Positions 38,210-60,520 of a stretch of DNA of 64,000 bases are shown one piece after another. Position numbers and translations under genes: made by a program. The notes beneath the pieces are model-generated. The model ran no database searches and was not told the DNA's origin. It saw only the letters and a program-made list of their open reading frames with translations. The stretch lies in the NCBI RefSeq assembly GCF_014203605.1, contig NZ_JACHJJ010000004.1, positions 1 to 64,000 of the forward strand. The letters run 5' to 3'. The stretch's first letter is position 1, and the number at the start of each line of letters is the position of its first letter. This DNA comes from Thiemannella venezuelensis (lineage in GTDB: Bacteria; Actinomycetota; Actinomycetes; Streptosporangiales; Streptosporangiaceae).

Positions 38210-40090
38210 TTATCCGATCTTGCCAGGTTTGCGGATCTTCCCGGGCCGCTTGGTGATCTTCGGGGTGGGTTCGGGGGTGGCCTTCGGGCTCGGCGCGGAA
38301 GTGGATCCGCCGGCCGGCGGAGGCGTGGGGGTGGCAGTGGGCCGGGGGTCGGGCGTCCGGGTGGGCTTCGGGCACGCGGCGGTCCGGCCCGCCGCCCGGT
38401 CGGTGCGGCCCGAGGGCAGCCCGGTCGCCACCACGCTCCAGCCGGAACCGCACGGCACCTTCGGGAACGTGAACCTGACCGTCTCGGTGTAGCTCGTCGT
38501 CCCGGACATCGGCACGACCGCCTGCCGGCTCGCCCGCCCCACCCGGAAGACGACCCGCAGGCGCACCGGCCGGGTGTTCGCCGCCTTCACGGTGACCGTC
38601 GCGACGGCCAGGCCCCGGGCGTTGAGACCGGCCCGCAGCACGTCCACCCCGCGCACCCGCGGCTTCGGAACCGGGGTGGGAGTCGGCGTGCGGACGGAGG
38701 TGGGCGTGGCGGACGGTCGCGGGGACGCCGGGGGAGACGTCGACGGGGAGCGGGAGGGAGCCGGGCTCTCCGCGGGGGTGGCCGTGGCGGCGGGCGTGCC
38801 CGGCGAGGGGTCCGGTGTCCCGGTCGCGGGGGACCCCGGATTCCCGGAGGACCCTGGATTCCCGGAGGACCCTGCGTTCCCGGAAGGCCCGGTGCTCCCG
38901 GAGGGCCCGGTGCCGGACGGGTCCGTGGCCGTCCCCGACGGCCCCGCCGGGAGCGGGGAGGCGACCGGCGGGCTGGGGAAGGCGGGGACCGGGGAGGAGG
39001 CCGGCGGCGCGGCGGCGGCGACGTCGATCCGCTGCGGGGGCGGAGTCCGGTCCGCGGCCAGCACGTAGACGCTGACGCCGCCGGCGGCGAGCGCCAGCCC
39101 GGCTCCGGCCGCGACCCCCGCCGACCTCCTGCGCAGCCCGCCCAGGACGGTGCGGAACAGGGTGGTCCCGGCCAGCGTGGTCCCGGCCAGCGCGGTCCGG
39201 GCTCCGGCGCGCGGCGGTCCGAGCCGGAACAGCAGGGGGAGCAGCAGCGCCAGCGCGGCCAGCCGGCGCCGTCCGCGCTCCTCCCAGTCCTCGCCGTACC
39301 CGGCCGCGGCCGCGGCCTCCAGCTCGGCCACGAACAGGGCGGCGGTGGCCGGCCGGTCCGCCGGCTCCTTCGCCAGCCCCCGGGTGACCAGGTCCCGGAC
39401 GGGCTCGGGCACGTCCTCCACCGGGACCGGGGCGTTGCGGTGCTGGTGCATCAGCACGGCCCGCTCGGTCGCCTGGTACGGCCGGTGCCCGGTCAGGCAC
39501 TCGAAGAAGACGGCGGTGGCGGCGTACACGTCCGCGGAGGGGGAGGCCGGAGCGCCCGTCCACTGCTCGGGGGCCATGTAGGGAGGCGTGCCCGCGGGCC
39601 GGTCCGCCCGGCCGGCCCGCACGGCGATGCCGAAGTCCACCAGCTTGCTGGCGCCGTCCGCCTGGACGAGCACGTTCTCCGGCTTGTAGTCGCGGTGCAC
39701 CAGCCCGATCCCGTGCGCGGCGGCCAGGCCGGTGAGCGAGCCCTTGAGCACGACGAGGGCGGCCTCCGGCCCGGTCGCGCCGTGCTCGCGGAGCAGCTCG
39801 CGCAGGGAGACGGCGTCGACGGCCTCCATCACGATCGCGGCGTTCCCGGCGTGCTCGACGTACTCGTAGAGCCGGGCCACGTTCGGGTCGGCGAGCTCCA
39901 CCAGGAGCCTGGCCTCCTCGCGGAAGCGCAGCAGGAAGCCCGGGGAGTCCAGGAGGTCGTCCGCCAGGTACTTGATCGCGACCTGGACGCCCGACTCGTC
40001 GTGCCGGGCGAGCACCACCCGGCCGCCTCCGCCCGCGCCGAGCTCGCGCAGCTCGGTGTATCCGGGCGGGCTCCATCCGCTGGCCGTCAT
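38210..40090 (-). CDS. Transmembrane serine/threonine protein kinase with collagen-like stretch
   Basis: A 626-residue kinase paralogous to its neighbour. The kinase domain (1-270) has GAGGGGRVV, VAIKYL, HRDYKPENV, DFGIAV and GTPPYMAPEQW. A membrane segment lies near residue 330-350 (AGVAAGAGLALAAGGVSVYVL). The outer part has Gly-Ser-Pro repeats of the form GPSGSTGPSGNAGSSGNPG, then a beta-rich domain with an XCGSGW Cys, and a Thr/Pro/Lys-rich tail. GGAGGG precedes ATG 40090. The 118-base gap to the next kinase may hold its own promoter. Confidence 0.87.
   Translation of the reverse strand: MTASGWSPPGYTELRELGAGGGGRVVLARHDESGVQVAIKYLADDLLDSPGFLLRFREEARLLVELADPNVARLYEYVEHAGNAAIVMEAVDAVSLRELLREHGATGPEAALVVLKGSLTGLAAAHGIGLVHRDYKPENVLVQADGASKLVDFGIAVRAGRADRPAGTPPYMAPEQWTGAPASPSADVYAATAVFFECLTGHRPYQATERAVLMHQHRNAPVPVEDVPEPVRDLVTRGLAKEPADRPATAALFVAELEAAAAAGYGEDWEERGRRRLAALALLLPLLFRLGPPRAGARTALAGTTLAGTTLFRTVLGGLRRRSAGVAAGAGLALAAGGVSVYVLAADRTPPPQRIDVAAAAPPASSPVPAFPSPPVASPLPAGPSGTATDPSGTGPSGSTGPSGNAGSSGNPGSSGNPGSPATGTPDPSPGTPAATATPAESPAPSRSPSTSPPASPRPSATPTSVRTPTPTPVPKPRVRGVDVLRAGLNARGLAVATVTVKAANTRPVRLRVVFRVGRASRQAVVPMSGTTSYTETVRFTFPKVPCGSGWSVVATGLPSGRTDRAAGRTAACPKPTRTPDPRPTATPTPPPAGGSTSAPSPKATPEPTPKITKRPGKIRKPGKIG
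38829..38864. repeat. 18-bp tandem repeat in the kinase gene
   Basis: Two near-exact 18-bp units encode SSGNPG on the minus strand, with further diverged copies alongside (to about 38915). They make the collagen-like outer stretch. Confidence 0.65.
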
Positions 40091-40165
40091 CGCGTCCCTC
40101 CACCGGGTCGGGGTGCGGTCCCCCTGTGAGACGCGCGGCCGGGCCGTCCGGTTCGCCGGAGAGGC

Positions 40166-48772: not shown

Positions 48773-51037
48773 TCAGGGAGTCGCGCTGAGGCCGATCACG
48801 ATGAAGCGCTCGGCGACCACGGCGACCGAGAGCAGGAACGCCGGAATGGCGGTCCACAGCAGCAGGCGCCTGGTCCTCGGGGCGCGGCCCGGCTCGCGCA
48901 GCCGGACGAGCTGGTAGCCGAAGAGCGCCGACCAGGCGACCACCAGGGCGCCCAGGCCCACCGGAGTCCACGGCGAGCTGCGGTCGCCGGGGCCGCGCAG
49001 GCTCACCGGCTCGGGGATCTCGGCGCCCTTGGGGTAGGACCGCAGCGTGTAGACCGCGGCGTCCTCGTTGCCGTAGACCTGCTTGAGCAGCGGCGCGGCG
49101 TCCAGGGCGGCCCGCAGGCGCCTGTCCCAGGCGTCCGGGTAGCCGTGGTTGAGCTGCAGGTAGGCGGCCTGCCCCCGGCTGACCACGAGGTAGGTGTTGG
49201 GCGGGGAGAGCTTGAGCTTGTCGATCACCGAGGAGATCACGGCGGGGTTCTTGTCCACGAGCACCTGCTCGTAGCGGATCTTGTCGAAGTCCTCCTCGCC
49301 CCAGGGGATGCTCGGCGTGACCTCCTCGCCGATCTGCGGGACCAGGTACAGCACGCGGGCGCTGGGCTCGTCGTGCTGGTAGACGTAGTGCATCGCCGCG
49401 ACCTCGCCGGTGGAGACGCGCTCGAACTGCTCGTTGCCGTAGCGGGCGACGAGGAAGGCCATGGAGAGCGCCAGCGCGCACGCGGCGGCCAGCAGCAGGG
49501 AGATCCGGCGGGTGAGATGCGGATCGAAGCGGATGTTCCGCCTGCGGATCGGCACCGTCTCGTCGGGGTTGTCGGCCGTGCCCGCGGGGAGGTTCGGGAA
49601 GAACGCGTAGGCGGCCAGGATGCAGGCGCCCGGCAGCGCGAACATGTAGATCCGCAGACCGATCTCGCCGCCGTAGCTCTGCAGGCCCAGGGCGAGCACC
49701 GGAACGCACAGCAGCAGCAGCGCGGCCCGGTCGCCGACGCCCCGGCGCACCCGGCGCAGCAGGCCGACGGCGGCCAGCAGCAGGATGACGGCGCAGATTC
49801 CGAGCCGGGCCATCAGCACGAGCGCGTGCTTGGCGTCGCTGCCCTCGATCCGGTCGCCGGTGTTGCTCTGCAGGTTCTGCAGGATCCTGCCCAGCCCGCC
49901 GAAGAGCTGGTCGAGGTGACCGCTCCAGAAGGTGGTCGTCTGGTAGCTGATCCAGGCGAGCACGATCAGGCCGAAGAAGAACGGCGCGGCCCAGGTGAGC
50001 GACGAACGCCGGAGCAGGATCAGGCCGGTCAGCGCGCCGAGCATCATGAAGGGGGTGATCTGGTGCGCGGTCGTGGCGGCCACGAACAGGCCGATCAGCA
50101 TGATCAGCATGATCGACCGGTCGTAGACGCCGGTGGTGTGGCCCAGCTCGCCCGGGGTCAGCCTGCCCAGCCGGATCAGCAGCCGCCGCAGCCGGCCGCC
50201 GGTCTTCGGGGGCGTCTCGCGCGGTTCGACCCTGCCGAACCAGCGCAGCAGGATCGCCACGAAGGCCAGGTAGATCGCGTAGGTGAAGCCCTGGGCGGAG
50301 AAGTAGTCCTGGCCGATCCACTGCACGACGACGAAGAGCAGGGCGGCGAACCAGCGCGCCCGCGTGGTGGCGACCACCTGGCGCAGGATCAGCACGAACG
50401 GCAGCAGGTAGAGCAGGTTGGACAGCAGCGGGGTCCACTGCATGAGCGTCGTGAGGTCGGTGATCCCCGCGGCCCTGGTGACGAACGCGACCAGCGCGAA
50501 GAACCCGGGCCAGGCGAAGCGGGCGTCCAGGATCGGGGAGGACTCGCCGGTGCGGGCGATGAACTCCACGAAGCCCGCGTGGACGTAGGCGGTGTGGAAG
50601 CGCGGCTCGTCGTGGATCAGGGCGGAGGCGCCGTGCAGGGCGAAGGTGATCGCCGAGATCTGGAAGAGCAGCAGGAACTTGCGGTCGGTGTTCTGCGCGA
50701 TGGTGACGAAGAACGCCGTGATCATCAGCAGGATGGCGGCGAACGCGGCGCCGGGCAGGGCCGAGATCAGCCCGAGCCCGTCGATGTCCGCCACCTCGAC
50801 GCCGCGCAGCGGCCCCGGCGAGACGCGCAGGGCCAGCACGTACATGACCAGGCCCTCGACCGTGAGCAGCGGCGGCAGCCACCTGGCGGCCGTCCGGACC
50901 AGCGCGGCCGCCCGCGCGGACCCGGCCGCGGGCACCGGCGGCCCGGTGGTGGAGTCGGCCTTTCCCTCGACCTCGGCAGTTCCCGCCGCCCCCGTTGTCA
51001 CGTCATTACCCGCCGATTGACTCACGTCTAACATCAT
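48773..51037 (-). CDS. Large polytopic membrane protein, probable GT-C-type glycosyltransferase
   Basis: A 754-residue protein with about 12 membrane segments spread over residues 55-530 and near the C-terminus, and a soluble outer part at about 545-680. The layout resembles GT-C-fold glycosyltransferases that use lipid-linked sugars, with an acidic first loop (VEVADIDGLG). No clear family name is visible. Its ATG overlaps the stop of the flippase gene by ATGA, so it is made together with it. A polymerase role is another option. Confidence 0.7.
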   Translation of the reverse strand: MMLDVSQSAGNDVTTGAAGTAEVEGKADSTTGPPVPAAGSARAAALVRTAARWLPPLLTVEGLVMYVLALRVSPGPLRGVEVADIDGLGLISALPGAAFAAILLMITAFFVTIAQNTDRKFLLLFQISAITFALHGASALIHDEPRFHTAYVHAGFVEFIARTGESSPILDARFAWPGFFALVAFVTRAAGITDLTTLMQWTPLLSNLLYLLPFVLILRQVVATTRARWFAALLFVVVQWIGQDYFSAQGFTYAIYLAFVAILLRWFGRVEPRETPPKTGGRLRRLLIRLGRLTPGELGHTTGVYDRSIMLIMLIGLFVAATTAHQITPFMMLGALTGLILLRRSSLTWAAPFFFGLIVLAWISYQTTTFWSGHLDQLFGGLGRILQNLQSNTGDRIEGSDAKHALVLMARLGICAVILLLAAVGLLRRVRRGVGDRAALLLLCVPVLALGLQSYGGEIGLRIYMFALPGACILAAYAFFPNLPAGTADNPDETVPIRRRNIRFDPHLTRRISLLLAAACALALSMAFLVARYGNEQFERVSTGEVAAMHYVYQHDEPSARVLYLVPQIGEEVTPSIPWGEEDFDKIRYEQVLVDKNPAVISSVIDKLKLSPPNTYLVVSRGQAAYLQLNHGYPDAWDRRLRAALDAAPLLKQVYGNEDAAVYTLRSYPKGAEIPEPVSLRGPGDRSSPWTPVGLGALVVAWSALFGYQLVRLREPGRAPRTRRLLLWTAIPAFLLSVAVVAERFIVIGLSATP

Positions 51038-52491
51038 GAGGGCTGCGTGGACCCTGATGCGACGACCGATTGCGAAGTTTTGCCATAGTTGAGCATTTTG
51101 CGAAGGCCGCCGAATATCATTCCGGCGACCGCGAGCTCGCTCAGCAGCAGGGCGTAGCCCACCGCGTTCACGCCCAGGTGGGGGAAGAGCAGCAACGTGC
51201 TGACCAGCACGAGAACCGCCAGCCCCATCTGGACGAGCGCCAGCTTACGTGCCTGCCCGCGCGCCCGGAGACCGCTGAGATAGATCTCGATGAGGACCCG
51301 GGGCAGCACTGCGAGCGCCATCAGCTGCAGCAGCAAGGTACCCCGATCGGCGAATTCGGAACCGAAGACACGCAGGATGAACGGGCCGGTGAGGATCGTC
51401 GCGATCACGATCGGAACGATGATCATGAACGCCCGGCGGAGGGCCCGGCGGGCGTTGGCGGCCAGCGCGTCCCGGTCGAAGGAGCCCTCGACGGTGAGGG
51501 AGGTCGCCATGTTCATCGCCAGCAGCTCGATCAGGCAGCCCAGCGTGTGAGCCATCGAGAAGTAGCCGAACGTCACCTCGTCCACCTGCGCGGCGATCAG
51601 CACCGGGATCAGGTAGACGATCGCCAGGATCGAGAACGTGCCCGGATAGTCGCCGGCCAGGAAGCGGCCGATCTCCGGGAGCCGGGGCGGCGGGACGGTG
51701 GAAGCGGTCTTCCTGACGTGCCGGGGGACGACCTTCCCGAAGATGAAGATGTTGATCGGGATCAGCGCCATCGCGGCGGGGATGATCCAGGAGACGAAGA
51801 TGCCGCCGTCGGGCAGGGCGTACGCCAGCCCGACCAGCATGGCCATCTTGACCAGGCCGTAGCCGAGGCTGTTCACCGGCACCCAGGTGGCCTTGCGCAG
51901 GCCGGCCAGGGTCACGTCCTGGAGGGTGAACACCGACCAGACCAGCACCGAGGCCAGGAAGAACAGGCCCGGCCCGAAACCGTCCAGGGAGGCGTAGGTC
52001 GGCCCCCACCACGGCAGCGTGAGCAGGAACCCGACCGCCGCCGTCACGCCGGTCGCCCCGGCTATCACGTAGGCCCGGATGATGAGCTCCGGGGTACGGC
52101 GCCCGGCCAGCGGGATGAACCTGGCCAGCGCCCCGACGAAGCCGAGCGCGGTCAGCGAGGCGAACAGCCGCATCGCGGTGATCACGGCCTGGCCCCGCCC
52201 GAAGTCCGCCGCGTCGTACAGCTGCGCGGCGAGCCACCAGTAGCCCATGCCGAGCACGGCCGTGATGGCGGTGTTGGCCATGAGCGCGTAGCCGTTGCGG
52301 AACAGCGGGTTGCGCAGGTCATGCCGGAGCCTGCCCCACAGCCCCGTCGGCCCGGCCTCCTCGGCCGGCCCGGGAGGGGAGGCCTCGCCCGGGGCCGGGG
52401 ACCCGGCGCCCGCAGGACTCTCGCCGAGGAGCCCGAGGCCGGCGTCCGTGAACGCATCGGCCCGGATCGTCCGTTCGTCGAGTTCGCTCAT
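51034..52491 (-). CDS. Polysaccharide flippase (MATE/Wzx-like)
   Basis: A 485-residue protein with 12-14 membrane segments. An N-terminal cytoplasmic tail (residues 1-60) precedes RNGYALMANTAITAVLGMGYWWLAA split over the first segments. The fold fits the oligosaccharide flippase superfamily that moves lipid-linked units across the membrane. ATG 52491 follows a purine-rich GGGGGGAGA. It starts 35 bp after the deacetylase gene and overlaps the next gene, so it is in the same operon. Confidence 0.85.
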   Translation of the reverse strand: MSELDERTIRADAFTDAGLGLLGESPAGAGSPAPGEASPPGPAEEAGPTGLWGRLRHDLRNPLFRNGYALMANTAITAVLGMGYWWLAAQLYDAADFGRGQAVITAMRLFASLTALGFVGALARFIPLAGRRTPELIIRAYVIAGATGVTAAVGFLLTLPWWGPTYASLDGFGPGLFFLASVLVWSVFTLQDVTLAGLRKATWVPVNSLGYGLVKMAMLVGLAYALPDGGIFVSWIIPAAMALIPINIFIFGKVVPRHVRKTASTVPPPRLPEIGRFLAGDYPGTFSILAIVYLIPVLIAAQVDEVTFGYFSMAHTLGCLIELLAMNMATSLTVEGSFDRDALAANARRALRRAFMIIVPIVIATILTGPFILRVFGSEFADRGTLLLQLMALAVLPRVLIEIYLSGLRARGQARKLALVQMGLAVLVLVSTLLLFPHLGVNAVGYALLLSELAVAGMIFGGLRKMLNYGKTSQSVVASGSTQPS

Positions 52492-52526
52492 GTCCCTGTC
52501 TCCCCCCACGCCCGCGGACGTGTCAC

Positions 52527-53330
52527 TCACGCGAGCCCACGGACCCTGCGCAAGCCGTACTTCGTGCGCCTGACGACGGCGTAGCCCTTCGTCAGCACGC
52601 GCTCCTTCATGTAGATCAGCGGGATCCGGCTGCCCTCGACCGCCCGGCGGAACATCGGCATCGTCGTGCCGTCGGTGACGGTCAGCCGCGGCATCGCGAG
52701 CACGTCGTGCCGGTCGGCGGCGATGGCGTTGTTCACCGCGCAGGCGGCCCAGTAGCCGGCCCGCCGCACCTCGCGCCGGACGCGCGCGCTGGAGTAGCCG
52801 TACGGATAGGCCATCGTGGTGACCGGAGCTCCGATCTTGTCCTCCACCAGCGCCTTGTTGCGGCGCAGCTCCTGGCGGAGCCGGTCCTCGGGGAGCTGGT
52901 CGAGCTGCGGATGGCTGTGGCTGTGCCCGGCGATCTCGATGCCGCAGGAGGCGGCCTCGCGGGCCTGGGTCCAGGACACCGTCTTGTCGAGCGGCCGGCC
53001 CGCCGCGTCCTTGCCCGCGTCGCTCACCCATCCGCTGGTCAGGAAGAGCGTGGCGGGGAAGGAATGCCGGTCGAGCACGGGCAGGGCTTCGGAGTGGAAG
53101 TCCTCGTAGCCGTCGTCGAAGGTCACCACGATCGGGCGCTCCGGGATGGAGCGCCCGTTGTTGCGGTGCAGCGAGGCGACGAGGTCGGCCACGGTCAGCG
53201 GCGTGAAGCCGCTCTCCTTGAGATAGGAGAGCTGCTCGGCGAAGGCCGAGGGCCGTACGGCCAGCGGTTTCGTCTCGGCCGTGGGCCGGTCGGAGACCGA
53301 GTGGTACATCAGGATGGGCACGCGGATCAT
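52527..53330 (-). CDS. Polysaccharide deacetylase (CE4/NodB)
   Basis: A 267-residue NodB-type deacetylase. Motifs are VTFDDGYEDF (catalytic base and metal Asp), EIAGHSHSHPQL (metal His) and MAYPYGYSS. It would remove acetyl groups from N-acetylated sugars of the polymer. No signal peptide is seen, so either it acts on intracellular lipid-linked units or export is by another route. Its ATG overlaps the GT2 stop by 4 bases. Confidence 0.87.
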   Translation of the reverse strand: MIRVPILMYHSVSDRPTAETKPLAVRPSAFAEQLSYLKESGFTPLTVADLVASLHRNNGRSIPERPIVVTFDDGYEDFHSEALPVLDRHSFPATLFLTSGWVSDAGKDAAGRPLDKTVSWTQAREAASCGIEIAGHSHSHPQLDQLPEDRLRQELRRNKALVEDKIGAPVTTMAYPYGYSSARVRREVRRAGYWAACAVNNAIAADRHDVLAMPRLTVTDGTTMPMFRRAVEGSRIPLIYMKERVLTKGYAVVRRTKYGLRRVRGLA

Positions 53331-54268
53331 GACTGCCCCAGTTTCAGGCGGAGAGAGCCGACAACATAACCCCAGGTCGTCCAGGCGAGGCCGACCACGA
53401 TCGCGGCGGCCCGGCCGAGGCCGGACACGTCGCCGCGGAGAGCCTCCCCGACCCCCCGCAGCGCGCCGAGCGGCAGCGCCTTCAGCGCGTGCGCCCGCTC
53501 GCTCGCCAGCCCGTCGCCGGCGCCGACGCTCTGGGCGACCAGCGCCTTGGACAGGCCCTCGGCGTAGCACCGGGACCGGAAGTAGGAGAACCGGGAGCGC
53601 GCGGCCGAGACCTTGTGGCCGATCACCGCCTCCGGTTCGAACATCATCACCGAACCCGGCATGCGCTGCGAGATCCGGATGCAGAACTCGGTCTCCTCGC
53701 AGCCCAGCGGGCGCGGCTTGCGGCCCTGGACGCTCCGGCCGATGCCGGTGTGGAAACCGCCGCTCTCCGTCACGACCTCCTTGCGGAAGGCCGCGTTGCC
53801 GCCCATGACGTTGCGGATCGGCGCCCGGGCCGTGGGCATGCCCTGGTAGGTGCAGCCCACGGTCCAGTCGAACTCCTGCGGGAACCAGCGCGGGCGACGG
53901 CCCGTCGCCCACAGCGGCCTGGTCAGGCCGCCCACCCCCACCACGGCCGGGTCCTGGAAGCCCTCCTCCAAAGCTTCCAGCCAGCCGGGCTCCGCCACCG
54001 CGTCGTCGTCGAGGTACGCCACGATGTCGCCCGAGGCGGTCGCCGCACCGGTGTTCTTGCCGCCGGACAGCCCCTTCTCGTGCGTGTTCTCCACCACGAT
54101 CGCGTCGGGGTACTCCCGCTTCAGCATCAGGTGCAGGTCGGGGTTGTAGTCGACGACCAGGATGAGCTCGTGCGGCCGGCGGCTCTGCCTCCGGACCGAG
54201 TCCACGGCCTCCCGGATGTCCTCCCAACGCTCCTCGGTGTAGACGCAGATGACGACGCTGGTCTTCAT
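53327..54268 (-). CDS. Family 2 glycosyltransferase
   Basis: A 313-residue GT2 enzyme. TSVVICVYTEERWEDI is the nucleotide-binding strand; YLDDDAVAEP carries the DxD metal motif; ETEFCIRISQRMPG holds the catalytic acid. The C-terminal third is rather hydrophobic (AAAIVVGLAWTTWGYVVGSL), so it is membrane attached. It lies 2 bp after the other GT2 gene and overlaps the deacetylase gene. Confidence 0.87.
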   Translation of the reverse strand: MKTSVVICVYTEERWEDIREAVDSVRRQSRRPHELILVVDYNPDLHLMLKREYPDAIVVENTHEKGLSGGKNTGAATASGDIVAYLDDDAVAEPGWLEALEEGFQDPAVVGVGGLTRPLWATGRRPRWFPQEFDWTVGCTYQGMPTARAPIRNVMGGNAAFRKEVVTESGGFHTGIGRSVQGRKPRPLGCEETEFCIRISQRMPGSVMMFEPEAVIGHKVSAARSRFSYFRSRCYAEGLSKALVAQSVGAGDGLASERAHALKALPLGALRGVGEALRGDVSGLGRAAAIVVGLAWTTWGYVVGSLRLKLGQS

Positions 54269-54270
54269 GG

Positions 54271-55098
54271 CTAGGCGGCGCCCTGGTCGGCGGCGGGCGT
54301 GGCGGTCTGCGGCTCCGGCAGCAGGGCGGCGGGCTTGACGCGCCACTCCCGGATGATGGTCTTCAGCACGCGGATGCCGTCGCGGACCGCGTGGAGGTTG
54401 CTCTCCCCGTGGATCCGGCAGCGTTCGTGGCTGGGCACCTCGTAGACCTTCAGACCGGCCTTGGCGGCCCTGATGTTCATCAGGGTCTCGACCTCGAAGC
54501 CGGCGCAGTCGATGTTCAGCACATCGAGGTGGCGGGCCCAGAAGGCGTTGTAGCCGTAGCAGAGGTCGCTGTACTGGGTGCCGTAGATCTTGTTCACCAG
54601 ACCGGTCAGCACCTTGTTGCCGAACGTGCGGGTGAAGGTGAGGTCGTCGCTTCCGCCGCCGGACGCGTAGCGCGAGCCCTTGACGAAGTCGGCGCCGGTG
54701 ACCAGCGCGCCCACGAACTGGATGATCTCCCGGCCGTCGGTGGACCCGTCGGCGTCGATCATCACGATGATGTCGCTGGTGCAGGCGGCGAAGCCGGCGG
54801 CCAGCGCGTCGCCCTTGCCCTTGCCGGTCTGGGTGACGACGCGGACGTTGGGCCGGAGCCGCTTGGCGACGGCGACGGTGTCGTCCACCGAGTTGCCGTC
54901 CACCAGGACGATCTCGTCGATCCACTGCGGCAGGGTGGCGAACACGTGCGGCAGGTTCTCCGCCTCGTTCATCGCCGGGACCACGACGCTGACCGTGGGC
55001 GAGATGGCCACGTGCGGCGTGAGCGGCGTGAAGCGCTCGATGGGGGGCATCGACCTGAGCGGAGGGTTGGCAGGGTGCTTGGTGATGTCGGGACTCAT
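54271..55098 (-). CDS. Family 2 glycosyltransferase (polyprenyl-phosphate type)
   Basis: A 275-residue GT2 enzyme close to dolichol-phosphate mannosyltransferases: VSVVVPAMNEAENLPHV, EIVLVDGNSVDD, and the metal motif VMIDADGS. It lacks C-terminal membrane segments. It probably makes a lipid-linked sugar for the polymer. It heads the run of tightly linked genes; a 197-base gap upstream (55099-55295) may hold a promoter, but I could not fix one. Confidence 0.87.
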   Translation of the reverse strand: MSPDITKHPANPPLRSMPPIERFTPLTPHVAISPTVSVVVPAMNEAENLPHVFATLPQWIDEIVLVDGNSVDDTVAVAKRLRPNVRVVTQTGKGKGDALAAGFAACTSDIIVMIDADGSTDGREIIQFVGALVTGADFVKGSRYASGGGSDDLTFTRTFGNKVLTGLVNKIYGTQYSDLCYGYNAFWARHLDVLNIDCAGFEVETLMNIRAAKAGLKVYEVPSHERCRIHGESNLHAVRDGIRVLKTIIREWRVKPAALLPEPQTATPAADQGAA

Positions 55099-55295: not shown

Positions 55296-56420
55296 CTAGA
55301 CCCCTCCTGTTTCCTTGACGGCGGTGCTGGGTGATTGGTTCTGGACGGAGGTACGCATCCGGCCGAAACCTTTCAGCACACGATCGGCCAGTCGATACAG
55401 CTCAGGACGGTCGGTGACGATCGTGCGTGCTTTGTTGACGGGTGTCCGACCCATCCAGTGAACGGCGGCCGTCGGCGACGGGCGAGAGACGCGCCCTTCG
55501 GCGACGAAAAGATCGCCGCTCTTTAGCCAGCCCTTGTATTCGCGTCCGCCCTTGCCCATGTCGACCTGGCGCAGGCCGGCGCCGGCCGCGTGCTCCGCCA
55601 TGAGTAGATGGTGCACGATCCCGGGCGAGTAGCGGGCGAATTCGGTGTCGTACGCGGGGAACCAGCCGACCAGGGTGTCGGCCGTGCGCAGGCCGAAGTG
55701 CCCCGCGACGGGCGTGTCGCCGGCGTAGACCATGGTCAGCACGCCCGCGAAGTGCGGCGACCGCTCGGCGTGCATCTCGTCGAGCAGCCGGACGATCCAG
55801 GGCTGGGCGAAGCGGTCCACCCGGCCGGTGCGGCGGTACTGGTCGGACTTCCACTGCATGAGCTGCCGCAGGGCCCCCGTGTCGGCGGAGTCCCACTCGA
55901 AGCGGAGCCCGCCCTGCTCGCGGCCGAACTTGCGCTCCTTGTAGCGGACGGTCTTGTAGTTCTTGGGGGAGTTGGCGCGGACCTGCTCGACGTAGGCGTC
56001 GAACCCGGCGCTGAGGTCCATGACGGGCGCGGGCCGTACGTCGGTCTGGTAGGGCGCGAAGGTCGGCTGGCCGGCGACCATGTGGTCGAAGTCGAAGACC
56101 GAGAGCCTGCACGTGCGGAGCAGGGCGCGGACGTCCACCTTCAGGTCGGAAACGGAGATCAGCCCGTGGCAGGTGGTGAGGAACCCGCCCAGCGGTTTGC
56201 CGATCCCGAAGCTGTGCCGTTCGTAGGGGAAGAAGGCCACGATCTTGTCGCCGTCCTCGATGACGGCCACCCGGACGTAGTCCCGCAACCGCCCCATGGC
56301 CAGTGCGAACTCCACGGAAAGAAAGGGATTGTCGAGGGCGGGATCCGCCCCCTGCAACTCCCGCCAACGGGAGATCTCGGACTCCCCGAGTTCTCCTGGG
56401 CGAACGACGCTGATGTTCAC
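55296..56420 (-). CDS. GNAT-fold acyltransferase, CelD/FemAB-like (copy 2)
   Basis: A 374-residue paralogue of the protein at 43634-44716, sharing WRELQGADPALDNPFLS, VAGHFGLRTADTLVGWFPAYD and YSPGIVHHLLMAEHAAGAG. GTG 56420 is chosen because it overlaps the stop of the preceding small membrane gene (GTGA). It likely transfers an acyl or aminoacyl group onto the surface polymer or its lipid-linked precursor. Both copies end in GFGRMRTSVQ/AFGRIRTSVQ, an unusual shared tail. Confidence 0.83.
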   Translation of the reverse strand: MNISVVRPGELGESEISRWRELQGADPALDNPFLSVEFALAMGRLRDYVRVAVIEDGDKIVAFFPYERHSFGIGKPLGGFLTTCHGLISVSDLKVDVRALLRTCRLSVFDFDHMVAGQPTFAPYQTDVRPAPVMDLSAGFDAYVEQVRANSPKNYKTVRYKERKFGREQGGLRFEWDSADTGALRQLMQWKSDQYRRTGRVDRFAQPWIVRLLDEMHAERSPHFAGVLTMVYAGDTPVAGHFGLRTADTLVGWFPAYDTEFARYSPGIVHHLLMAEHAAGAGLRQVDMGKGGREYKGWLKSGDLFVAEGRVSRPSPTAAVHWMGRTPVNKARTIVTDRPELYRLADRVLKGFGRMRTSVQNQSPSTAVKETGGV

Positions 56421-56788
56421 CGTGACCTGGCCCCCTGTTCGGTCTGCAAGCTTCCGCCCCCCCGGTACAAAACACGCAGCACGTATATGAAGCCGCCCAG
56501 CACCGCGATCGTCGCCACCCCGGCCCGGGGCGACCATGCGTCAAAGGAGAGCATGGCGGTGGCAAGGAGAACGTTTATGACGAGACTTGCCGCCGCACCG
56601 ACTGATAGTGCCGCAAGAGGGTCACGATCACGCAACAGTCCCATGACTGCGGCCCCAGGAACGATCAGAAGGAACATAGGAGTCAAAATCAGGCGGAGTG
56701 GTGTCTCGATCTCTGCAAGTGCCAACACAGCCCCGGAGAGGCATGTCAGAGCGAGTATCCACCTGAACACTCTTCGGTTGGTCGACAT
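56417..56788 (-). CDS. Small four-segment membrane protein
   Basis: A 123-residue protein with about four membrane segments (WILALTCLSGAVLALAEI is the first). I do not recognise a family. It is translationally coupled to the acyltransferase (GTGA overlap), which suggests the two work together, perhaps with the membrane protein holding the enzyme or substrate at the membrane. ATG 56788 is preceded by a GGGAG-like site. Confidence 0.7.
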   Translation of the reverse strand: MSTNRRVFRWILALTCLSGAVLALAEIETPLRLILTPMFLLIVPGAAVMGLLRDRDPLAALSVGAAASLVINVLLATAMLSFDAWSPRAGVATIAVLGGFIYVLRVLYRGGGSLQTEQGARSR

Positions 56789-56941
56789 CTCTGGCTCCCG
56801 GGATGGACAAAGGGACGGCTGATCGCCACCTCATGTGACCAACCGCCCCGTGCGGACGTCAATGCCGACGTCTGGCATCTGTCCATGGTTTACCCGATGG
56901 CAAAGAGTTGTGCGTCCACCTTCCAAGCTGTGGTCAAAAGG

Positions 56942-58558
56942 TCAAGACATCTCCGGAGCCGGACTGGAGGTCGCCGAGGGGGGCTCCGAGGGCGGCTCAG
57001 ACGGGTCCGGCGGGGGCTCGGAAGCCGCTGGTTCAGGGGCTTCCCACGAGATCGCGCAGCTGACGCCCCCTCCGTCGGACCGGAACACCACCTGGCCGGA
57101 TCCACTTTCGGCGAGTCCGGTAGAAGTGACCCAAATCACTCCATTGGCCCCTGACCTGAGCCGACCTCGGGCGGGCTGGATGACCAGCCCGCCCGAAGCG
57201 GTGGCCGACCACTCGATGACGGCGTTGTGCGCGGTGAGTCTGATCTGCCCGGAACCCTGGCCGATGTCGGAGGGGCAGGAGACGGCCAGCCGCGCGGGGG
57301 CGGGCCGGGGGGTGGGCGGGCGCGTGGCCCTGGGCCGCCGCGACGAGGGGCGCCGGTCCGTGCCGGGCGCGGGCACCGGCACCGTCGCCGCCGGGCGTGT
57401 CCCCTCCGCGATGGGCTCCGGCGGCGGGCTCTCCTCCGCCGAGGGGGTCTCCGTCGGTGCGGTGTCCGAGGGCGCCGGTTCGGCGGGCGGCGCAAAGGTG
57501 ATCATCGCGGGCTCCGTGCCGGGAGCGGCTTCGGCCGTCCCCGTGCGGCCTCCGCTGAGGTCCAGCCCGGTGAGCGTGATCATGCCTGCCGTGGCGGCCA
57601 GCACGCACACGGCCGCCACGATCACCGGAACGCTCCGCCTCGGCTTCCGCCGCCGCACCGCGCGCCGCGATCCGGAGGCTCCCGCCGCCCCGGAGGGCCG
57701 CGATCCGCCCGCGACGGGGAAGCCCGTCCGGTCGAAGGGGCCGCCCGCCTCGACGATCGCGGCGCGGACCTCGTCCAGCTCGGGATTGACGCAGGTCTCG
57801 ACGACCCGCCGGCGCAGGGAGAGCGGCGGGAAGACCACCGGAACCATGTCGAGCAGCCGTCCGGCCGAGACGTGCCGGCCCCGGCGCTCGGTGCAGACCT
57901 CGCACCGGGCGATGTGGCCGGAGAGCCGTCTGCGCAGCATCGGGGTGAGCGGCCCCTCCCACGAGTCGACCATCGCCGACAGGTCGGGGCAGTGCGCCCG
58001 GCCCACCTTGGCGAGAACGACCGCGGCGGCGGCGTTCTCCAGATGGTCGCGGGCCCGGCCGAGCCGGGCGGCGGCCTGCCGGGAGCTGAGCCCGACCACC
58101 GCCCCGACCTCGCCGGTGCCCAGGTCGTGCCGGAGCGACAGCTCCAGGACCTCCCGCTCCTGTCCGCCCAGCTCGCCCAGGACCTCGTGGACCAGCGCGG
58201 CGAGTTCGCGCTCGCGGGGGTCGTCGTGGCCGTCCACGGCGGGCAGGGGCAGCGAGGGCGGCGCCGCGCCGTGCCCGCCCCGGGGCCGGGCCGCGCACCG
58301 GGAGCGGACCAGCGCGTACAGCCAGGAGCGCAGCCGCCCGGCGTCCTGGAGCAGGTCGGCGCGCCCCTGGGCGGTGACCAGGGCGTCGTGCACGGCCTCC
58401 GCCGCGCCGTCCCGGTCGGCGAGCAGGGAGCACGCGTAGTCGTTGAGGCGTTCGGCGTAGGCGTCGAAGAGGCTTGCGGGCGCCTGGGTGTCGGCGCGCC
58501 GGAGCGCCTCCACGAGTCGTTGGTCGTCGGCTCGGCCGACGGTCGGCCATCCGGGCAC
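56942..58558 (-). CDS. ECF-type sigma factor fused to zinc-finger anti-sigma-like and membrane-anchored outer domain
   Basis: A 538-residue fusion. Residues 12-95 are sigma region 2 (AYAERLNDYACSLLADRDGA), 120-185 region 4 (REVLELSLRHDLGTGEVGAV). An HIARCEVC motif (His215, Cys219, Cys222) matches zinc anti-sigma domains. One membrane segment lies at 310-332 (VIVAAVCVLAATAGM). A Pro/Thr-rich stalk and a BACON-like beta domain with two Cys follow. GTG 58558 has GGGAGG eight bases upstream. Having activator, inhibitor and sensor in one chain implies release by proteolysis or local action at the membrane. Confidence 0.78.
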   Translation of the reverse strand: MPGWPTVGRADDQRLVEALRRADTQAPASLFDAYAERLNDYACSLLADRDGAAEAVHDALVTAQGRADLLQDAGRLRSWLYALVRSRCAARPRGGHGAAPPSLPLPAVDGHDDPRERELAALVHEVLGELGGQEREVLELSLRHDLGTGEVGAVVGLSSRQAAARLGRARDHLENAAAAVVLAKVGRAHCPDLSAMVDSWEGPLTPMLRRRLSGHIARCEVCTERRGRHVSAGRLLDMVPVVFPPLSLRRRVVETCVNPELDEVRAAIVEAGGPFDRTGFPVAGGSRPSGAAGASGSRRAVRRRKPRRSVPVIVAAVCVLAATAGMITLTGLDLSGGRTGTAEAAPGTEPAMITFAPPAEPAPSDTAPTETPSAEESPPPEPIAEGTRPAATVPVPAPGTDRRPSSRRPRATRPPTPRPAPARLAVSCPSDIGQGSGQIRLTAHNAVIEWSATASGGLVIQPARGRLRSGANGVIWVTSTGLAESGSGQVVFRSDGGGVSCAISWEAPEPAASEPPPDPSEPPSEPPSATSSPAPEMS

Positions 58559-58620
58559 GGACTTTTCCTCCCGCGGTACGGGTTCGTTCACGGGCCATGC
58601 CCGAGACCCCACACGCGTAG

Positions 58621-58648
58621 GACGTCACCTGTTCATGGTGGGTTGTCC
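58621..58648 (-). promoter_or_regulatory. ECF-type promoter of the sigma-fusion gene
   Basis: On the minus strand GGACAACC (58641-58648) is followed after 16 bp by CGTC (58621-58624). This fits the AAC/CGTC pattern of ECF sigma promoters, so autoregulation is likely. Confidence 0.55.
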
Positions 58649-58652
58649 TGGT

Positions 58653-58667
58653 ATGCCAACCTGGCAT
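58653..58667. promoter_or_regulatory. Perfect 15-bp dyad upstream of the sigma-fusion gene
   Basis: ATGCCA, three bases, TGGCAT, just upstream of the predicted ECF -35 box. Confidence 0.45.
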
Positions 58668-58729: not shown

Positions 58730-60520
58730 TCAGCAGTTGGGCGAGCAGAGGCGGCGGGCCATGCCGTCCAGGAAGAACTTGCGGATCTCCAGGACGTTCT
58801 TGGCGATGTAGGCGTCGCCGTTGGTCGCCTTGGCCAGGGCGTCCATCTGGCGCTTGCCCGCGGAGGCGTCGGGGCCGAAGGCGATCAGGATGATGCTGAC
58901 CGGCTTCTCCGGGTCGAACTCCTTCTTGAGGAACCGCACGATCTCCTGGTTGCTCATCCCGCCGTCGGGGTCGTCGTTGCCGGCCCCGTCCGTCATGATG
59001 AGGATCGTGTTGATCTTGTCGCTCTTGTAGCCGTCCTTCATCATCTTGTAGGCGGCCGCGAGGCTGTCGTTGAGTCCGGTGTCACCGGTCGCCTTGGCCT
59101 GGGTGGTCGAGAGCTTCTGCTTGATCAGGTCCGTGCGGAGCACGCCGTCCACGGTCTCGGTCAGCGGGCCGACCGAGACCGTCTCCCGGTAGTCCACCCC
59201 CTGGCCGTCGAGGTGGGTGGAGAACTCCCACAGCCCCATCTCGCTGTTGGCGGGGAAGAGCTTCATGCCCTCGACGGCGATCCTGGCGATCATCTGCATC
59301 CGGGTCGCGCCGGTACCCTCCACCGGGAGCGCCATGGTGCCGGAGACGTCCAGCAGGGTGACCAGGCGGGTGCCCAGGTTCATCCGCGACCACGACTGCG
59401 ACATGCGCGCGACGGTCTTGGCGTCGGGCATCTCCAGCGCCTGCGGGGCCTTGGCCTGGAAGCCGCCCTTCTCGGAGATGGCCGCGCCGCCCTTGCCGTC
59501 CGGGGTGCGGAAGCCGTGCTCCTGGAGGGTCTTCCTGGCGGCGTCGGTGCCGAGCTCCTTGGCGAACTCCGCGGCCACCTCGCGCATCTCGTCGTCGGTG
59601 GTGGTGACCACGATCGGGTAGTCCAGGTTGAAGGTGCCCTCGGCCGGGTAGAGCGGCACCGCCGGGACCTCGGGCTTCTTGGTGCTGTTGAAGGCCCAGA
59701 CGCCCTGCTCCGAGGAGATGCCCAGCGGGACGCGGCGGCCCTTCACGCCCAGGCTGGCCAGGAGGGCCTCCTGGTCCTTGACGGTCGAGCCGGAGAGCGT
59801 CTTCATCGCGCCGACCAGCTGCTCCTGGCCGACGCCCGCCGCGGTGGCCACCCCGGAGGCGGCCAGCAGCGCGCCGAGCCCGGCGGCGTTGAGCGAGGGG
59901 TCCAGCGCGAGCACGCGCACCTTGCGGCCGGGACCGTCCACGTTGGCCGCGTTCGTGGCGTTGATCATGCCGCTCCAGCTCGCCTCGCCGAAGCTCTTCT
60001 TCAGATTGGGGACCATCGAGCCGGAGGCCGCCATGACGACGGGCGACTGGGCGGCCGAACCGGTCGGCTCGGGCACGGCCGGGTTCTTGGCGCGGACGCC
60101 GCTCACCCACAGGGAGGAGTCCGGGATCCACAGGTCCATCGCGCCGACCTTGCCGCCGCTCCCGCCCAGCCCCGCGGCCACCGTCGCCGAGGCGGTCTTG
60201 GTCACCTTGACGCTCGCGCACCCGCCGCCGACCTCGTGGCCGGCCTTGGTGAAGCGGCCCGCGATCTCGGCCACGGCGGGCTGGATGTCGGGTGAGGCGG
60301 TGACGCGGAGCGTGACCTCGTCCCCGGAGCACCCGCCCCGGTCCCGGTTGATGATCACGAACGCGGCCACACCGAGCAGCACGGCGAGGGCGACCGATCC
60401 CGCCAGCGGGACCAGCACCTTGCCCCGGCTGCTCCGCCGGCGGCGGGCCGGTTCGCGGGCCGACTCACGGTACGAGGTGTAGCCGTCGTCGAGTTCATCC
60501 GTCCGGTGCCGTCCGCCCAC
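58730..60520 (-). CDS. Membrane-anchored solute-binding/VWA fusion protein
   Basis: A 596-residue protein. One membrane segment at residues 34-58 (VLVPLAGSVALAVLLGVAAFVII), then an outer part. Residues 65-360 have the type-2 periplasmic-binding fold (VTLRVTASPDIQPAVAEIAG, LWIPDSSLWV). Residues 385-580 are a VWA domain with a MIDAS motif LLDVSGTM and ILIMTDGAGNDD. Cys residues at both ends (RDRGGCSG and RRLCSPNC) may pair. The family is known in actinobacteria without a defined role. It precedes the sigma-fusion gene in the same direction. Confidence 0.78.
   Translation of the reverse strand: MGGRHRTDELDDGYTSYRESAREPARRRRSSRGKVLVPLAGSVALAVLLGVAAFVIINRDRGGCSGDEVTLRVTASPDIQPAVAEIAGRFTKAGHEVGGGCASVKVTKTASATVAAGLGGSGGKVGAMDLWIPDSSLWVSGVRAKNPAVPEPTGSAAQSPVVMAASGSMVPNLKKSFGEASWSGMINATNAANVDGPGRKVRVLALDPSLNAAGLGALLAASGVATAAGVGQEQLVGAMKTLSGSTVKDQEALLASLGVKGRRVPLGISSEQGVWAFNSTKKPEVPAVPLYPAEGTFNLDYPIVVTTTDDEMREVAAEFAKELGTDAARKTLQEHGFRTPDGKGGAAISEKGGFQAKAPQALEMPDAKTVARMSQSWSRMNLGTRLVTLLDVSGTMALPVEGTGATRMQMIARIAVEGMKLFPANSEMGLWEFSTHLDGQGVDYRETVSVGPLTETVDGVLRTDLIKQKLSTTQAKATGDTGLNDSLAAAYKMMKDGYKSDKINTILIMTDGAGNDDPDGGMSNQEIVRFLKKEFDPEKPVSIILIAFGPDASAGKRQMDALAKATNGDAYIAKNVLEIRKFFLDGMARRLCSPNC

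Follow-up and report, generated by a model that had tools for sequence, protein, structure and literature searches.

How does a sigma factor that is built into a membrane-anchored chain, together with a domain resembling an inhibitor of sigma factors, reach a promoter, and which promoters would it serve? The question is raised by a gene in a 64,000-nt stretch of Thiemannella venezuelensis DNA (the window, meaning the whole stretch analyzed), which an initial annotation had read as a single chain of sigma factor, anti-sigma-like domain, membrane segment and outer domain, a reading that conservation, motif and structure prediction now back. That annotation rightly described sigma and anti-sigma as normally separate proteins, but it overstated the abnormality of their fusion, which ECF48, ECF52, ECF53 and IutY all have (PMC8999054; PMC5826349); its view of the route to the promoter as an open question holds only in part, because the architecture has been described in those same cases and proteolytic release has already been proposed. 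Tethered sigmas with a fused inhibitor are known mostly from in-silico classification, and the promoters of the one actinobacterial example studied genetically are uncertain. What is new and testable at this locus is the combination of conserved candidate promoters with a named surface-polysaccharide target operon, and the family has many non-pathogenic hosts, so that the freeing of a tethered sigma, and its sensing, become directly testable.

Reading frame and conservation of the chain

The gene is an uninterrupted frame on the minus strand that runs from GTG 58558 to a stop codon at 56942-56944 (Table 1), and the coordinates 56942-58558 given in the initial annotation are exact. We place the start at GTG 58558 because a GGGAGG box lies 8 nt 5' of it and both start and box are kept among relatives. 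The mechanical open reading frame begins farther upstream, at GTG 58612; this longer start was dropped, as the conserved ribosome-binding site belongs to 58558.

When one genome per species was scanned, 36 relatives were recovered, all from Streptosporangiaceae (host genera Planomonospora, Planobispora, Streptosporangium, Nonomuraea, Thermoactinospora and Microtetraspora), most of which align over their full length. All share one domain order: sigma regions 2 and 4 come first, then a zinc-type anti-sigma domain and a single membrane helix, and finally a Pro-rich stalk that carries an outer domain of Ig-like/BACON-like type. Pfam profiles applied to 32 family members detected region 4 in 32, region 2 in 30, zf-HC2 in 25 and BACON_2 in 10 (best E 1e-3). 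Averaged over sequence pairs, the zinc domain is 86% identical, ahead of region 2 (73%) and region 4 (74%); the value drops to 65% for the helices behind the zinc domain, 57% for the membrane helix and 36% for the stalk and rises again to 56% for the outer domain. No part of the chain is better conserved than this anti-sigma core, in which 37 of 64 columns are invariant, and the inhibitor-like part is therefore more constrained than the sigma regions. Even the most distant relatives keep the 33-residue span of the C-x24-H-x3-C-x2-C motif.

The tail is conserved as well, counter to a doubt raised in the initial annotation, as evidenced by the identity in the outer domain and by retention of both its cysteines in 30-31 of 31 sequences. 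The label BACON-like, also from that annotation, is supported by relatives: two distant ones, L055 (47.7 bits) and L056 (32.4 bits), exceed the BACON_2 cut-off of 25, and an Ig-like sandwich is predicted, but the outer domain of the window protein itself gave no Pfam match to BACON reaching E 1. No Pfam match to NPCBM was found in the window protein or its relatives. Two features are restricted to parts of the family. In Planomonospora, Planobispora and some Streptosporangium a signal-peptidase-like site, AEA↓AP (window 57520-57535), directly follows the membrane helix on its outer side, and a Microtetraspora relative (L033) has several hundred added low-complexity residues between the zinc domain and the membrane helix, in a frame of 895 aa.

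Table 1. Features of the sigma gene, its flanking DNA and the putative target operon (window coordinates)
Feature	Coordinates	Strand	Details and basis
Whole gene	56942..58558	minus	538 aa, GTG start; orthologues in 36 loci
Ribosome-binding site GGGAGG	58567..58572	minus	kept before the same start in relatives
Sigma region 2	58289..58531	minus	residues 10-90; profile match and structure
Sigma region 4	58031..58219	minus	residues 114-176; profile match and structure
Zinc-type anti-sigma (ZAS-like) core	57839..58030	minus	residues 177-240; conservation
C190-x24-H215-x3-C219-x2-C222 motif	57893..57991	minus	invariant in 31/31
Two more conserved helices	57704..57838	minus	residues 241-285; position of anti-sigma helix 4
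Arg-rich cytosolic juxtamembrane segment	57626..57703	minus	
Single transmembrane helix	57566..57625	minus	residues about 312-331; hydropathy; A315, L320, A321 conserved, T323 invariant
Pro/Thr-rich extracytoplasmic stalk	57302..57565	minus	unconserved
Outer Ig-like/BACON-like beta-sandwich	57035..57301	minus	residues 420-508; C428, C501 conserved
ECF-type promoter AACC-N16-CGTC, sigma gene's own	58621..58644	minus	alignment of upstream DNA
ECF-type promoter AACC-N16-CGTC, next operon	56867..56890	minus	31/31 relatives
15-bp dyad ATGCC-N5-GGCAT	58653..58667	none	8 bp upstream of -35 box
123-aa membrane protein, first gene of putative target operon	56417..56788	minus	no Pfam family; conserved synteny
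GNAT-fold acyltransferase (Acetyltransf_6)	55296..56537	minus	Pfam; synteny
Family 2 glycosyltransferase	54271..55098	minus	synteny
Family 2 glycosyltransferase, second	53327..54274	minus	
Polysaccharide deacetylase	52527..53366	minus	
Polysaccharide flippase-like membrane protein	51034..53031	minus	weak Pfam match; true start inside the ORF

Predicted structure and known single-chain sigma factors

Structure prediction, which the initial annotation had recommended for each segment, supports its reading of the chain. The full-length model reached a pTM of only 0.55, with a disordered stalk, and sigma regions 2 and 4 were modeled confidently (pLDDT >90 over most of both). The modeled helices of the zinc domain span residues 191-198, 206-218, 220-229 and 247-271, with HxxxCxxC across the second and third. 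Published class I anti-sigma domains have four helices, HxxxCxxC across helices 2-3 and a helix 4 that binds sigma2 (PMC7406223); the predicted layout fits this description, and a later helix of the model sits where helix 4, as defined there, contacts sigma2. The class I zinc anti-sigmas RsiW, ChrR and RsrA share the four-helix layout and the placement of the motif, but they are normally separate proteins, whereas in the window protein the domain is part of the sigma chain itself and follows sigma4. A profile search of the zinc domain against solved anti-sigmas returned chance matches only (E up to 5).

The predicted sigma part superimposes on anti-sigma-bound sigmas with Z of about 12 and an rmsd of 3.0-4.2 Å over 151-157 residues, including CnrH/CnrY (Z 12.2, rmsd 3.0), SigW/RsiW (Z 12.2, rmsd 3.9) and RpoE/NepR (Z 12.6, rmsd 3.3), as against an rmsd of about 21-28 Å to polymerase-bound ECF sigmas. 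The model thus adopts the closed, anti-sigma-bound form, resembling SigW in SigW/RsiW, as would be expected of a self-inhibited chain. Modeled alone, the outer domain forms a beta-sandwich of eight strands (mean pLDDT 88) that Foldseek and VIA-align matched to many Ig-like/PapD/MSP-type sandwiches at Z 7-7.6; matches of a predicted fold at this level are too general to name a function.

Several known proteins share this plan to differing degrees. In ECF48, ECF52 and ECF53, all actinobacterial, the sigma is fused to a zinc finger of the ZAS type and to one or two membrane helices, and release by proteolysis is expected (PMC8999054). Within that set, ECF48 and ECF53, for which PMC8999054 names no experimental member, match the window protein by description in the C-terminal position of this zinc finger and in their one or two transmembrane helices, and the window family, compared through these descriptions alone, possibly belongs to one of the two. 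SCO4117 (ECF52) shares an ECF sigma domain, an HxxxCxxC zinc finger, a transmembrane region, a Pro-rich stalk and an extracytoplasmic domain, and for it positive autoregulation has been suggested (PMC5826349). SCO4117-type proteins of Streptomyces-like genomes (L094-L096) end, however, in an NPCBM carbohydrate module, not matched in the window protein, and the SCO4117 neighborhood differs, with atrA alongside in Streptomyces. When the window protein was compared by BLAST with SCO4117-type proteins, neither the sigma nor the zinc domain was matched (best E 0.85), and profile matches of the window family to the three loci were marginal only. Membership in ECF52 was therefore ruled out on sequence and on the differing outer domain, leaving a parallel architecture. 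IutY of Pseudomonas putida (ECF243) can be likened by description, as its single chain holds both a sigma and a membrane anti-sigma, but it serves Gram-negative iron-siderophore cell-surface signaling through an outer-membrane receptor. The architecture is thus already known in actinobacteria, and the particular family described here looks undescribed.

Candidate promoters, dyads and the adjacent operon

An ECF-type motif, AACC-N16-CGTC, precedes the sigma gene in 32 of 37 loci and recurs between the sigma gene and the next operon in 31 of 31. When the spacing of the two boxes was varied from 10 to 23, spacings other than 16 matched only 2 sequences upstream and 1 downstream, and the same spacing test on the opposite strand gave zero matches. 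Synteny extends to at least the first genes of the downstream operon in nearly every relative with a long enough contig. No separate sigma partner or anti-sigma gene was found next door, the neighbors being polysaccharide genes and a solute-binding/VWA protein. The gene for this last protein, a solute-binding/VWA fusion at window 58730-60520, lies upstream of the sigma gene and remains adjacent to it in almost every relative. A conserved promoter pair that links a gene of this kind to a surface-polysaccharide cluster looks undescribed.

The extended pattern GTAAACC-N16-CGTC was counted against its reversed form across 11 genomes and is enriched, with 44 sites versus 4; the set probably includes genes under the control of other ECF sigmas. 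The pattern precedes an exopolysaccharide polyprenyl glycosylphosphotransferase gene in each of the two genomes from the window's genus (L130, L143). Further sites lie before a plsX-like gene (L134) and a ShbA-like sigma gene (L135), and within the window AACC-N16-CGTC occurs at 40130-40153 (minus strand), about 60 nt before a Ser/Thr kinase gene at 38210-40090.

A second conserved element accompanies the sigma gene's own promoter. The dyad ATRCC-N5-GGYAT, counted in a loose form, precedes this promoter in 37 of 37 loci, at just three distances from the -35 box, 8 bp in 27 loci, 19 bp in eight and 29 bp in two, so that successive distances differ by one helical turn. This register is not absolute, because six more distant orthologues have a gap of 16 or 28 bp. 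The combination of dyad and promoter occurs essentially once per genome, and the dyad suggests a probable site for an additional DNA-binding regulator. Another dyad, ATGCC-N7-GGCAT (window 56862-56878), overlaps the -10 box of the downstream operon; these two are the only such dyads in the window, where 0.31 would be expected.

Proposed mechanism, alternatives and the wider family

We favor, with somewhat better than even confidence, an autoinhibited, membrane-tethered ECF sigma that is released by proteolysis and activates both its own gene and the surface-polysaccharide operon beside it. In the scheme that we infer for how the sigma is inhibited and cut free, what it senses and which promoters it uses, the class I zinc-type anti-sigma domain would pack on sigma regions 2 and 4 and hold the closed form, while one helix anchors the chain and the stalk bears the Ig-like outer domain, the probable sensor of a signal that comes from the cell envelope or is a carbohydrate. 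On receipt of this signal the outer part would be clipped, followed by a site-2 protease cut within the membrane; M50 protease genes are present in the genome. The freed cytosolic piece would then shed its inhibitor part and bind RNA polymerase, and the released sigma would transcribe its own gene and the neighboring operon from the two AACC-N16-CGTC promoters.

The assignment of these promoters to the tethered sigma is the step most exposed to a competing explanation. The chain could be tethered and self-inhibited as proposed, with its own targets elsewhere, and the AACC-N16-CGTC promoters could be read by another ECF sigma, for example one of the SigE family, an alternative that we regard as a real but distinctly less probable one. 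S. coelicolor SigE itself is a separate, short sigma with neither a fused inhibitor nor a membrane part. ECF consensus sequences overlap widely, a SigE-family sigma gene is preceded by the same conserved GTAAACC-N16-CGTC box in several genomes (L132, L136, L141), and S. coelicolor sigmaE promoters resemble the core, sharing AAC(C)...CGTC, with targets that include cell-wall glycan genes (PMC6767563). The AACC-N16-CGTC core is thus generic, and the box alone is not proof of its reader, since the SigE-family gene and the S. coelicolor promoters share it. Against another reader stands the fact that the promoter accompanies the sigma gene even where the neighboring operon does not: in distant orthologues with a different gene downstream (L048-L052) the sigma gene's own promoter persists as AACG-N16-CGTC. 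ECF sigmas, moreover, usually autoregulate and control adjacent genes, which is the pattern that the two promoters of the favored mechanism would form.

Release itself can be questioned, in that the sigma might act while still tethered, opened by a conformational change or by loss of zinc and reading its promoters at the membrane. Zinc-type anti-sigma domains can be redox switches, as in RsrA, and C256 is a further invariant cysteine of the chain. In addition, the protease sites near the membrane segment that the initial annotation had proposed as a search target did not emerge: no site-1 or other extra-membrane protease sequence is conserved family-wide, the stalk being variable, and the only conserved residues at the possible cleavage region are small or Thr residues within the membrane helix. 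We nevertheless consider activity in the tethered state improbable, as outer domain and anchor are present in every complete relative, which suits a signal from outside, and as related designs point to cutting. IutY has been demonstrated by others to be activated through proteolysis by Prc and RseP (PMC8999054), and a truncated SCO4117 sigma domain keeps its activity without the tail, for which proteolytic excision was suggested (PMC5826349).

Less probable still is a degenerate sigma domain that has lost transcription initiation, leaving the chain as a scaffold or sponge. The matches of the window protein to sigma region 4 (E 1e-4) and region 2 (E 3e-3), like that to zf-HC2 (E 0.07), fall under the curated Pfam cut-offs, and its sigma region scores are also under those of NCBIfam; promoter contacts may therefore be altered. 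Set against this, regions 2 and 4 have 40 invariant columns in addition to their high identity and confident models, and the sigma regions of better-scoring members reach E 1e-8 to 1e-9. An artefact in which a frameshift or sequencing error joined two genes, a concern that the initial annotation had also voiced, is negligible, with nothing in its favor, since the fused frame is intact in the window and in over 30 independent assemblies with a single conserved start for the entire chain, and L025 (Nonomuraea dietziae) alone is frameshifted, near the end of its own copy, within the outer domain.

Returning to the tethered, proteolytically released sigma, comparable chains extend well beyond the 36 relatives. 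With a profile of the zinc segment, relatives were found in 40 of the 297 genomes sampled from the class, and nearly all of those examined consist of a sigma, C-x24-H-x3-C-x2-C, one membrane helix and a differing outer part. The outer parts include BACON (L055, L056), the catalytic core of a glycosyl hydrolase (L081, L082), a CAP domain (L039) and Pro-rich sequence only (L061-L067), and the cytosolic part remains related where the outer domains differ (L039, L081, L082, L055, L056). By its sequence, the window protein is one of a broad family of fused sigma factors whose outer domains are interchangeable. A search of a plasmid collection gave three matches only; one, from a Thermomicrobium roseum megaplasmid (L037:3953-5263), has the same sigma-zinc-membrane-outer order outside Actinomycetota. 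Tentatively, and with no great confidence in the whole, we suggest a previously undescribed one-protein signaling family in which a sigma with built-on inhibitor, anchor and Ig-like envelope sensor would feed back on its own gene and on a polysaccharide operon, with an extra dyad-binding protein mostly in helical register and with outer domains swapped among BACON, CAP, glycoside hydrolase and Pro-rich forms.

The window's genome encodes a second single-chain sigma/zinc-domain/membrane protein (L072, G000:C8:224862-225173). Paralogues of this type, with a Pro-rich tail, occur in relatives too (L073, L074, L077, L078), and AACC-N16-CGTC is absent upstream of all five genes. Two tandem fused sigma genes with Pro-rich tails lie at L080:4767-7769, and L061 likewise has a tandem arrangement.
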